Shown here: in pieces, positions 12,720 to 54,059 of the stretch
Position numbering within the stretch: position 1 is the stretch's first letter
How the letters are laid out: each line of letters opens with the position of its first letter
Assembly: GCA_003552925.1 (NCBI GenBank)
Contig: PUOX01000031.1
Location: 1 to 64,000 of the forward strand
Origin: Mollicutes bacterium
Lineage (GTDB): Bacteria > Bacillota_I > Bacilli_A > Izemoplasmatales > Izemoplasmataceae
DNA length: 64,000 nucleotides
Direction of reading: 5' to 3'
The notes under the pieces: generated by a model
The model's database searches: none
Told to the model about the DNA's origin: nothing
The model's input: the letters and a program-made list of their open reading frames with translations, nothing else
Position numbers and translations under genes: made by a program

Positions 12720-14012
12720 ATGAGAATGGTAGACATTATTGAGAAAAAGCGCGACGGAAAAGCGGTCACCAAGGAAGAAATTGACTTTTTTGTGGAAGGT
12801 TACGTCGACGGCAAGATTCCTGATTACCAAATAAGCAGTTTGATGATGGCGATTTATTTCAACTCGATGGACGACGACGAAGCGACCCATTTGACCGAAG
12901 CCGTCTTGAACAGCGGCGACATCATCGATTTGAGCGCCATTGAAGGCATCAAGGTCGACAAGCATTCGACCGGCGGCGTCGGCGACAAGACCACCCTCGT
13001 CTTAGGCCCCCTCGTGGCCTCTTGCGGCGCAAAGTTCGCCAAGCTTAGCGGACGCGGCCTCGGTCACACCGGCGGTACGCTGGACAAGCTTGAAAGCATC
13101 CCCGGGTTCAACGTCTCGCTTTCGAACGAAGATTTCGTCAAGCAGGTCAACGACTTGAACATCGCCGTCGCCGGTCAAACGGCGAAGCTCGCGCCCGCCG
13201 ACAAGCTTCTTTATGCCTTGCGCGATGTGACGGGCACCGTCCCGAGCATCCCGCTTATCGCCGCCTCGATCATGAGCAAGAAACTCGCCAGCGGCGCCGA
13301 CGTCATCGTTTTAGACGTCAAAATCGGCGAAGGCGCTTTCATGAAGACGCTTGAAGACGCGCGCGAACTCAGCCGCATCATGGTGAAAATCGGCAAGAAC
13401 TTCGGCAAGAAGGTCACCGCGTTCATCACCGACATGAGCCAGCCTCTAGGCTATGCGGTCGGCAACAAGCTCGAGGTCGTAGAAGCCATCCAGACCCTTC
13501 AAGGAAACGGCCCCGAGGACTTGCAGAAGCTGTGCACCGAAATCGGCAGCTATCTGGTCCATAACGCCGGTTTGAGCGAAACGCTCAAACAAGCGCGGGA
13601 AATGGTCGAGAAGAAGTATGGCACCCTCGAGGCGAGCGACTTGTTCAAAGAAATGGTCAAGGCCCAAAAGGGCGAATACCCCGACTTGAACGACTTCATC
13701 CACAACGAAACGCTGATCGCCGTAAAAAGCGAAAAAGAAGGGTATGTCAAAAGCTTGAACGCCCTTGATATAGGCTTGAGCGCGATGCGCCTCGGTGCAG
13801 GACGCGAAACGAAAGACGACACCATCGACACCGACGTCGGCATCGTCCTCAACAAAAAAGTCGGCGACAAGGTGGAAAAAGACGAGGTCCTCGCCTACGT
13901 CTACAACAACAAAGACGACATCACCGACGAAGTGAAAACCATCTTGAACGCGTTCGACATCACCGAAGAATACGTCGAAAAGCCCTCGCTCATTGTCGAA
14001 ATCGTCGAATAA
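12720..14012 (+). CDS. pdp: Pyrimidine-nucleoside phosphorylase
   Basis: MRMVDIIEKKRDGKAVTKEEI, KHSTGGVGDKTTLVLGPLVASCG, KLSGRGLGHTGGTLDKLESIPGF. Confidence 0.96.
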   Translation: MRMVDIIEKKRDGKAVTKEEIDFFVEGYVDGKIPDYQISSLMMAIYFNSMDDDEATHLTEAVLNSGDIIDLSAIEGIKVDKHSTGGVGDKTTLVLGPLVASCGAKFAKLSGRGLGHTGGTLDKLESIPGFNVSLSNEDFVKQVNDLNIAVAGQTAKLAPADKLLYALRDVTGTVPSIPLIAASIMSKKLASGADVIVLDVKIGEGAFMKTLEDARELSRIMVKIGKNFGKKVTAFITDMSQPLGYAVGNKLEVVEAIQTLQGNGPEDLQKLCTEIGSYLVHNAGLSETLKQAREMVEKKYGTLEASDLFKEMVKAQKGEYPDLNDFIHNETLIAVKSEKEGYVKSLNALDIGLSAMRLGAGRETKDDTIDTDVGIVLNKKVGDKVEKDEVLAYVYNNKDDITDEVKTILNAFDITEEYVEKPSLIVEIVE

Positions 14013-14015
14013 ATT

Positions 14016-14047
14016 CGACCCTTCCCGGGTGGGAAGGGTTTTTTCTT
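14016..14047 (+). terminator. Rho-independent terminator after pdp
   Basis: cgacccttcccgggtgggaagggttttttctt. Confidence 0.85.
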
Positions 14048-14104
14048 GAAATTCGGTGTGTGCAAGCGGCAAACTTTGGTATAATGTCCTTAGGAGGGAT
14101 GCAC

Positions 14105-14458
14105 ATGATTGACGCAATCCATTTTTACAAGGCTTACGACCTCGACAACGTCCGGAGGTTTTATGGAGACGCTTTGAGCTTGAAACTGTACAAGGACCAA
14201 GGGTCCTGCTTGATTTACGACATGAACGGCCACGGCAAGATCGGCTTTTGCACGCATCATCCCAAGTTCCGGGCGGATTCGACGTGCATCACGTTCGTCT
14301 ACGAGCGCAAAGAAGACGTCGAAAGGATGCATCAGCACTTGAAAACGCGCGCGAAAGACGTCGGCCGTCCGGCGCTCAACGACAAGCTCAAAATCTACCA
14401 TTTTTTCGCGAAAGACTTTGAAGGCCACACGCTCGAATTTCAAACCTTCTTGTATTGA
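14105..14458 (+). CDS. Glyoxalase/VOC superfamily protein
   Basis: 'IHFYKAYDLDNVRRFYGDALSLKLYKDQGSCLIYD...IYHFFAKDFEGHTLEFQTF'. Confidence 0.8.
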   Translation: MIDAIHFYKAYDLDNVRRFYGDALSLKLYKDQGSCLIYDMNGHGKIGFCTHHPKFRADSTCITFVYERKEDVERMHQHLKTRAKDVGRPALNDKLKIYHFFAKDFEGHTLEFQTFLY

Positions 14459-14552
14459 AAATCGCTTCCATAGAAGCGTTTTTCTTTGGCGTAAGAGTTT
14501 TGTGTTTGCGTTGCGTTTTTCTGGCGATGTGTTATACTGAATGTGTCGATAA

Positions 14553-14645
14553 AATCAGGGGAGCTTAGAGTACTAGGCTGAGACATTCTTGAGACTAGAA
14601 TGAACCTTACCTGATCTGGGTAATGCCAGCGTAGGATGAATCTTT
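14553..14645 (+). promoter_or_regulatory. TPP (THI-box) riboswitch
   Basis: CAGGGGAGCTTAG...GGCTGAGA...ACCTTACCTGATCTGGGTAATGCCAGCGTAGG. Confidence 0.95.
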
Positions 14646-14654
14646 ATGATTGAG

Positions 14655-14684
14655 CTTTGTCCTAGGCGTGGACAAAGTTTTTTA
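14655..14684 (+). terminator. TPP riboswitch expression-platform terminator
   Basis: CTTTGTCC-taggcgt-GGACAAAG followed by TTTTTT immediately upstream of thiT. Confidence 0.85.
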
Positions 14685-14705
14685 TTTTATTGAGGAGTGA
14701 TCTTC

Positions 14706-22412: not shown

Positions 22413-23264
22413 ATGGTCAAACTAGCCGTATTCGACCTTGACAACACCTTGTTGACCGAGGACAAAAGACTGACCGACGCCACCATCGACGCGCTTGAGA
22501 AACTCACTCAACAAGGCGTCAACCTGGCGGTCGCCACCGGCAGGACCTTCGCACTCGCCCGCCCTTACGTGCGTGCGCTCAACATCGAGGGTCCAAACGC
22601 CTACAACAACGGCGCCCTGATTGAAACCGACAAGGGCGATACCGTCTACAAAAAAGCCATCCCCAAGCCTGCGCAAGCGCAAGTGGTCAAGTACGCCCTG
22701 CGACACAACCTCGTGTTTGTGCTTTATGGAAAGGACGCCATCTACGGCCCCGCGAACGATCGGCTCGATTTTTTCAAGCACTGGAACGAAGCCCATCCAG
22801 AGGCGAGCGTCACCATCACCGAAACCCGCGACGAAGACCTATTGAAGGCGCCCGATGCATACAAAGTGCTGATTCGCCTCCGGGAAACCGACGACGAAGA
22901 AGCCATCCTGAAGACGGTAACGGGCATTGAAGGCCTCCATGTGACCAAGAGCCAGCGAACCTTTCTCGACATCACGTCCGACGGCGCCCATAAGGGCAAC
23001 GCCATCAAACGTCTCATGGAGCACTACGGCGTCAGCGCCGAGGAGACTATGGCCTTCGGCGACAACGACAACGATGCCGAAATGTTGCAGGCGGTCCGCT
23101 TTTCATTCGCCATGAAAAATGGTACACTAAAAGCAAAAGAAGCCGCCAACCGCGAAACCAAGGACACCGCGGAGGATAACGGCGTCGCAAGAACCTTGTC
23201 CGAACTCCATATTTTGATGAAAGAGGGAGATTCCCATGGAACGAACCATCACCATCACCGATGA
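22413..23264 (+). CDS. Cof-type HAD-IIB hydrolase
   Basis: 'AVFDLDNTLLTEDKRLTDATIDAL', 'GDNDNDAEMLQAV'; end overlaps ptsH start. Confidence 0.92.
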   Translation: MVKLAVFDLDNTLLTEDKRLTDATIDALEKLTQQGVNLAVATGRTFALARPYVRALNIEGPNAYNNGALIETDKGDTVYKKAIPKPAQAQVVKYALRHNLVFVLYGKDAIYGPANDRLDFFKHWNEAHPEASVTITETRDEDLLKAPDAYKVLIRLRETDDEEAILKTVTGIEGLHVTKSQRTFLDITSDGAHKGNAIKRLMEHYGVSAEETMAFGDNDNDAEMLQAVRFSFAMKNGTLKAKEAANRETKDTAEDNGVARTLSELHILMKEGDSHGTNHHHHR

Positions 23265-23505
23265 AGCCGGCATGCACGCCCGTCCCGCTTCGAAGTTCTC
23301 CAAAAAGGCCGCAGAATTCGACAACGACATCACCATCGCCTATAACGGCAAAGAAGTCAATTTGAAAAGCGTCATGGGCCTTATGTCGCTTGGCATCCCG
23401 CAAAACGGGAAAGTGACCTTGAAAGTTGAAGGGGACGACGCCGAAGAAGTGTTGGACGTCTTGGAAAAGACCTTGGTCGAACTTGAATTGACGGATGAAA
23501 AATAG
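23236..23505 (+). CDS. ptsH: HPr phosphocarrier protein
   Basis: DEAGMHARPASKFSKKAAEF (His site), 'NLKSVMGLMSLGI' (HPr(Ser) site). Confidence 0.96.
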   Translation: MERTITITDEAGMHARPASKFSKKAAEFDNDITIAYNGKEVNLKSVMGLMSLGIPQNGKVTLKVEGDDAEEVLDVLEKTLVELELTDEK

Positions 23506-52788: not shown

Positions 52789-52832
52789 GGCAAATCTCCT
52801 TTGTATTGTGATGCCCGAGCTTGGCTCGGGAG

Positions 52833-52866
52833 CAGTAAAAAAAACCGCAGAAATCTACGGTTTTAT
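52833..52866 (-). terminator. Terminator/attenuator overlapping the stop codon of the 30-aa ORF
   Basis: Minus strand AAAACCGTAG-ATTT-CTGCGGTTTT followed by T-run. Confidence 0.8.
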
Positions 52867-52947
52867 CGCACGAAGAAAGTGTTTTGGCAGGCAAGCCAAA
52901 GCATGTCCGGGAGCTTTTGTTTGGTCCTTGAAGGCGATTATCACCAT
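52855..52947 (-). CDS. Candidate 30-aa leader peptide MVIIAFKDQTKAPGHALACLPKHFLRAIKP
   Basis: AAGGAGAG SD, ATG, 31 in-frame codons ending TAG inside a terminator stem; TATAAT-like promoter just upstream. Confidence 0.5.
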   Translation of the reverse strand: MVIIAFKDQTKAPGHALACLPKHFLRAIKP

Positions 52948-53063
52948 GGCGTATCTCTCCTTAAGTGTTCAAGAAATCGAAACGTTACTTTTGCCTGCGT
53001 CTACATAAATTATACCATGAAACGAGGAGTTCGCAACCAACAATCTTGAAGATTTGCATGTGC

Positions 53064-54059
53064 CTAAAGCTTACAATCGCCTGCGACAATCCAGCCGCGC
53101 ATCCGGAATAGACGGTCTATGAGGTAGACCAACACCAATGGGGCGACAATGTGCAATATCGCGATGCCGAAAAAGACCGACGCTTCATACCCCATGGCGT
53201 CCAAAACGCCTACTTGCCCAACAAGGGCGCTTGTGCCCATTCCGCTGCCGACCTGCGTGCTTTCTAAGCGGAACACCAAGGTGGAAAACGGGCCCAAAAC
53301 CGCGGAAGCGATGATGGGCGGAAGCCAGATGAGAGGCTTTTTCAGTATGTTTTTGAACTGCAGCATCGAAGTCCCGATGCCGATTGAGACAATGGTGCCC
53401 AAATTGTTGTCCTTGCGGCTCATCACCGCAAAACCGAGCATCTGCGCCGCGCCGCCCACCACGGCTGCGCCTCCGGCGATGCCGGTCAACCCGATGGAGA
53501 TGGCGATGGCGGCGCTTGAAATCGGTGATGTCAGCAACATCCCCATGATGGTGGCGATGACGACGCCCATCAAAAAGGGCTGGTAGGTCGTCGCGCGTTC
53601 GATGTAGTCGCCGATGCCGCCCATGAAGACCGAGACCGGATGACCGATCAGCGAGGCGACCGCGTAGGCGATAACGCCTGAGAAAAGCGGAATCAAAATG
53701 ATGTCGAGCGGCGTTTCTTTGCGCAAGATGTTGCGCATGCCTTCAATGGCGGCGACGCTTGTGATGTAGGCGACGACCGGGTCGAACATCAAAGTTGTGC
53801 CGATGCCGCCGGCCACCGCGCCGCTAATCAGCGGGATGCCTTTGAGTTTCAGCGACCAGGCGATGCCGGCGCCGATGCCGACGCCCATGAGCTCTTTGAG
53901 GATTTCCGACAGTTCTAAAAGGGAATTCAGGTTCAATAACGTACCGAGCTGTTCGACAATGACTCCGATGATCAAAGTGGAGAACAAACCGATGGCCATG
54001 CCGTTCAATGTTTTGATGAAATACTGCAGCACACGTTTTGGTATGGTTTCTTCGCTCAT
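53064..54059 (-). CDS. PTS EIIC-like (PTS_EIIC_2 family) membrane protein
   Basis: 'GIGAGIAWSLKLKGIPLISGAVAGGIGT', repeated Gly/Ala-rich TMs. Confidence 0.75.
   Translation of the reverse strand: MSEETIPKRVLQYFIKTLNGMAIGLFSTLIIGVIVEQLGTLLNLNSLLELSEILKELMGVGIGAGIAWSLKLKGIPLISGAVAGGIGTTLMFDPVVAYITSVAAIEGMRNILRKETPLDIILIPLFSGVIAYAVASLIGHPVSVFMGGIGDYIERATTYQPFLMGVVIATIMGMLLTSPISSAAIAISIGLTGIAGGAAVVGGAAQMLGFAVMSRKDNNLGTIVSIGIGTSMLQFKNILKKPLIWLPPIIASAVLGPFSTLVFRLESTQVGSGMGTSALVGQVGVLDAMGYEASVFFGIAILHIVAPLVLVYLIDRLFRMRGWIVAGDCKL

Follow-up and report, generated by a model that had tools for sequence, protein, structure and literature searches.

A lineage-specific leader upstream of a radical SAM gene in a Mollicutes bacterium: a candidate transcription attenuator that does not appear to act through its encoded peptide

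In attenuation of the pyrBI type, the ribosome follows RNA polymerase into the terminator, a process that needs tight coupling. In other bacteria, a short distance between stop codon and terminator has been taken to indicate that translation lags behind RNA polymerase (PMC7858274). In E. coli, by contrast, ribosomes repress stop-proximal terminators, and a stop codon placed 5 bp before a terminator lowered its efficiency from about 90% to less than 10% (PMC4824070, where pyrBI-type attenuation is also mentioned). In the MsrDL leader of msrD, which belongs to streptococcal macrolide resistance, a ribosome held at the stop codon is proven to obstruct an intrinsic terminator (PMC10314930), while in the vmlR leader of Bacillus subtilis variants of the upstream ORF (uORF) residues still work (PMC9226507). 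Ribosome-based attenuation thus exists in Gram-positive bacteria.

The locus described here lies in a window of 64,000 nucleotides, the whole stretch of DNA that was analysed, from a Mollicutes bacterium whose genome (G000, 1.28 Mb in 76 contigs) falls within a group of MAGs. The TATAAT box, Shine-Dalgarno sequence (SD), 30-codon ORF, two hairpins, T-run and radical SAM gene listed by a first-pass annotation were all found in place (Table 1). Radical_SAM was the single Pfam domain of the downstream protein; the MoaA and TYW1 models were weakly similar and no NCBIfam assignment came near the cut-off. A scan of 600 nt gave this promoter as its sole promoter-like match, where shuffled sequence would be expected to give 0.4, and its position would set the transcription start at about 53002. 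The same scan revealed no promoter-like match between the terminator and the radical SAM gene. Since no recognisable promoter follows the terminator, the radical SAM mRNA probably arises by read-through, which is the architecture of an attenuator. The intrinsic terminator that separates promoter and gene is kept in the sister species G004, and from this arrangement premature termination probably limits the radical SAM gene.

Table 1. Features of the EIIC-radical SAM intergenic region and its flanking genes (window coordinates).
Feature	Position	Strand	Details
Upstream gene, PTS_EIIC_2 family membrane protein	53064-54059	-	Pfam PF13303, 285.9 bits
Sigma-A type promoter	53009-53036	-	Scan, 10/12 matches; -35 TTGCGA 53036-53031, 16-nt spacer, TG-extended -10 TATAAT 53014-53009; -10 kept in G004
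Putative leader transcript	52837-53002	-	About 165 nt if terminated; from promoter and terminator positions; kept as a unit only in G004
Possible long-range helix GCAGGCA/TGCCTGC	52887-52998	-	Arms 52998-52992 and 52893-52887; invariant in both species, without covariation
Possible hairpin TTTCTTGA/TTAAGGAG	52957-52976	-	Would mask the SD of the 30-codon ORF; predicted in G000, re-formable in G004 with a bulge; weak
SD of the 30-codon ORF, AAGGAGAG	52962-52955	-	AAGGAG-to-ATG spacing 9 nt
30-codon ORF, MVIIAFKDQTKAPGHALACLPKHFLRAIKP	52855-52947	-	ATG 52947, TAG 52857-52855; also open in G004
Intrinsic terminator, AAAACCGTAG/CTGCGGTTTT	52837-52864	-	Scan; 10-bp stem, 4-nt loop; arms 52864-52855 and 52850-52841; T8 at 52844-52837
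Second hairpin, CCCGAGC-CAA-GCTCGGG	52814-52830	-	Lies after the terminator and ahead of the radical SAM SD; stem kept in G004
Radical SAM protein, 308 aa	51862-52788	-	Pfam PF04055, 65.7 bits; ATG 52788

The explanation we favour, and to which we give about an even chance, is that this region is a lineage-specific transcription attenuator acting in cis on the radical SAM gene. Most transcripts from the promoter at 53036-53009, together with any read-through from the EIIC gene, would stop near 52837 and leave the short RNA of about 165 nt, and the fraction reading through the terminator would provide the radical SAM mRNA. The level of read-through would be set by alternative pairings of the leader RNA, by ribosomes on the SD-led ORF whatever peptide they make, or by a fixed leakiness of the terminator. 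The data do not separate RNA pairing, ribosome occupancy and fixed leakiness; ribosome occupancy is our first guess because the SD, the start codon and the in-frame stop are all kept.

Nucleotide conservation was assessed in a 41-kb colinear alignment of G000 and G004, across which 38% of third codon positions had changed. The gap at 52789-53063 was 83.5% identical. Several plain gaps reached 69-75% and the T-box and L21 leader gaps 89-90%; a number of other gaps, mostly short and lacking any known RNA element, reached 84-91%. The gap thus appears constrained, less so than established leader RNAs, and we regard this as supportive, not decisive. Identity rose to 92% from the terminator through to the start of the radical SAM gene. 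Within the terminator, 22 of 24 nucleotides were kept, the stem being invariant and the loop alone altered, and the second hairpin reads CCCGAG-CGCG-CTCGGG in G004, with its loop swapped and its stem retained. The comparison is one of two sequences and so allows no real covariation test. An inverted repeat, AATCTT-C-AAGATT (53054-53042, minus strand), was also seen between the EIIC stop and the -35 box; G004 keeps it as AATCTTTGAAGATT with changed spacing, and it may be an operator or a weak hairpin. Elsewhere in the alignment, a 1.34-kb block (13354-14696) was 97.9% identical, against about 80% in the rest of the syntenic stretch. It begins at a G004 contig edge and may reflect a recent exchange or an assembly mix.

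The distribution of the unit was narrow. G004 was the sole match to the promoter-leader-terminator unit, at 81% DNA identity, when the order's 90 genomes were scanned with a covariance model and 150 relatives were searched at the DNA level; the covariance model gave no further copies or other locations in those 90 genomes. In three congeners (G001, G002 and G005), translated flanks showed the EIIC and radical SAM genes adjacent with a short gap and without the unit, from which it follows that control by the unit is not essential. The leader unit is lineage-specific. At the same position in G019, a 270-nt leader (locus L031, 1224-1494, plus strand) separates the EIIC and radical SAM genes and has a stable multibranched predicted fold (z = -2.3). 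It matched nothing in Rfam, and the family yielded no relative; its sequence is unrelated to that of the G000 leader, and it is a separate orphan leader.

Such a distribution, which is that of many small RNAs, also fits an independent small regulatory RNA gene of about 165 nt between the EIIC and radical SAM genes, the latter being then transcribed by read-through or from an unrecognised promoter. The unit is complete, with its own promoter and terminator, and its conservation is at the nucleotide and not the codon level. However, conservation in the spacer from terminator to gene and in the second hairpin equals or exceeds that of the leader, although a free RNA could do without it; the lack of any other copy or location in the order also weighs against this reading. 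We consider a small RNA gene possible but unlikely.

The 30-codon ORF was then compared as a protein between the two species. The G004 copy, MVKRGFKDQTKTYGLVLVCLPMQFLRAKKP, has equal length and retains the SD, ATG and TAG, although 11 of the 30 residues differ. Substitutions at the three codon positions numbered 2/9/7, while the radical SAM gene of the same genomes had 32/13/114; in the ORF, one codon change was silent and 11 were non-silent. At the rates of the radical SAM protein, in which 10.7% of residues changed, so many replacements have P = 1e-4, and this codon-position test detected no purifying selection on the ORF. Among its conserved codons, only one of 18 had a silent change (P = 0.004 at the silent rate of the radical SAM gene); these silent positions are frozen, which points to constraint on the nucleotide sequence. 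Judged by its substitutions, the ORF does not evolve as a protein: its nucleotides are held and its amino acids are not. The chance that the ORF would stay free of internal stops under as many substitutions as were observed is 0.42, indels uncounted. When the leader was dinucleotide-shuffled, an SD-led ORF of at least 20 codons ending inside the terminator hairpin arose 2.5% of the time, which makes this arrangement unusual, not compelling. Reading of UGA as tryptophan was rejected, as the G004 EIIC gene ends in TGA.

These results bear on the mechanism put forward in the first-pass annotation, in which the C-terminal segment of the peptide makes the ribosome stall or slow down at the TAG, the terminator is blocked and polymerase enters the radical SAM gene. 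In its favour stand the retained SD, ATG and TAG, the MsrDL and E. coli precedents, and the end of the peptide, where 9 of the last 12 residues are kept in G004 (CLPxxFLRAxKP) with proline before the stop. This partial retention, seen in two sequences, leaves a short arrest motif in this segment conceivable. No run of a single amino acid, as regulatory codons would form, was present in the ORF, and a peptide search over the family returned no relative with a meaningful score beyond G004. An excess of non-silent changes with frozen silent sites in the conserved codons is the opposite of what a selected peptide would leave. We thus regard the peptide, or its C-terminal segment, as very unlikely to exert control. 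What stands of the annotated attenuation is a promoter-leader-terminator unit before the radical SAM gene, shared with one sister species and with no second promoter found; in the alignment to which it had looked for a conserved ORF and stem, the stem was invariant and the ORF open, but the residues were not conserved.

The position of the stop codon had also been read as the classical geometry of leader-peptide attenuation. The TAG does sit within the 5' arm of the terminator, where a ribosome could block the hairpin, but this turned out to be an ordinary gene-end geometry here. We took the 40 genes of the window and contig C17 whose stop and terminator lie no more than 60 nt apart; genes were called as longest ORFs, so some stops are approximate. 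The median distance from stop to hairpin start was 4.5 nt; the hairpin began within 12 nt in 35 of the 40 and at or before the end of the stop in 11. Specifically, ptsH (23236-23505, plus strand, PTS-HPr) carries its TAG (window 23505) within the 5' arm of the terminator AAAATAGTGTGCC-GGCACACTATTTT. Because ordinary genes, ptsH and several others among them, end with the stop in the hairpin, where termination must not be prevented, the geometry alone cannot be read as attenuation in this genome. Such spacing suggests that RNA polymerase outruns the ribosomes in this lineage (runaway transcription, with loose coupling). More generally, wherever ordinary genes end in this way, a stop codon in a terminator hairpin argues only weakly for attenuation, and the gene ends of the organism itself must serve as control.

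A third possibility is that the leader is a new riboswitch-like aptamer, closed by GCAGGCA/TGCCTGC, that senses a metabolite and controls the terminator. This 7-bp long-range complementarity is invariant, as are several other blocks, and the consensus fold contains one two-sided compensated pair. The helix could close the leader; its invariance is no evidence of pairing, and it is mutually exclusive with an alternative hairpin, TTTGGC/GCCAAA (52900-52883). The whole leader folds with z = -2.6, a value that is due to the terminator: without it, z was -1.0 and -0.5 for the single sequences and -0.6 for the two-species consensus, no better than shuffled alignments, though with two sequences the power of this comparison is low. 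No strong antiterminator pairing with the 5' arm of the terminator was found in the leader. Rfam 15 gave no match at the gathering score and, up to E = 10, only low-scoring ones resting on the bare terminator; known riboswitches, the T-box and other families were rejected on this ground. Occurrence in two species only also argues against an aptamer. In a different genus of the family (G046), a c-di-GMP-I-like aptamer (locus L028, 1356-1282, minus strand; 52.5 bits against a gathering score of 59) lies upstream of a radical SAM homologue in the same direction, with about 250 nt more leader after it. Even with this parallel, we regard an aptamer as very unlikely.

Other candidates were set aside. 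6S RNA, suggested by complementarity between the 5' and 3' ends, was rejected, since the locus does not match and a divergent 6S candidate lies elsewhere (locus L001, 863-1044, plus strand, on contig C26; 32 bits and E = 4.6e-5 in the genome, which falls short of the Rfam gathering score). The sequence GCAGGCAAAA resembles the 3' half of an RAT antiterminator of the BglG/LicT type; on inspection by eye this was rejected, as the 5' half would overlap the -10 box and G000 lacks the closing CC. A genuine small protein encoded by the 30-codon ORF, with the terminator as its mere gene end, would agree with the good SD and its spacing and with a terminator set as at other gene ends here, but residues free of purifying selection, the absence of a Pfam match and, in the family-wide search, of any homologue beyond G004 make it extremely improbable.

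Returning to the attenuator, the leader could belong to an unrecognised lineage-specific class of leader RNA or uORF in which the fold or ribosome occupancy, and not the peptide sequence, gates a terminator before an uncharacterised radical SAM enzyme; we hold this more specific proposal to be decidedly unlikely. If the gene is regulated, the leader would give a first handle on what this enzyme responds to in these bacteria.

Among the known systems, MsrDL resembles this locus in its order of parts: a short SD-led ORF, an intrinsic terminator and then the gene to be regulated (PMC10314930). It differs in that its six-residue peptide and UAA stop are functionally required and its inducer is known, whereas at this locus the stop is UAG, the peptide lacks conservation and any inducer or stalling is hypothetical. 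The vmlR leader is likewise from the Bacillota and combines an SD-led uORF, an intrinsic terminator and a further hairpin before the SD of the gene (PMC9226507). Anti-antiterminator and antiterminator structures, as well as NusG pausing, have been demonstrated there; in contrast, no comparable competing structures were found here, and inspection by eye of the leader gave no NusG pause motif (TTNTTT). Attenuation of the pyrBI type resembles this locus in that the reading frame extends into the terminator and what would count is translation itself, whatever the peptide, but it depends on tight coupling, while the short stop-to-terminator distances in this genome suggest that coupling is loose. 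Within the genome itself, the end of ptsH has the same arrangement of TAG and terminator arm, with the difference that ptsH encodes a conserved protein and the small ORF does not.
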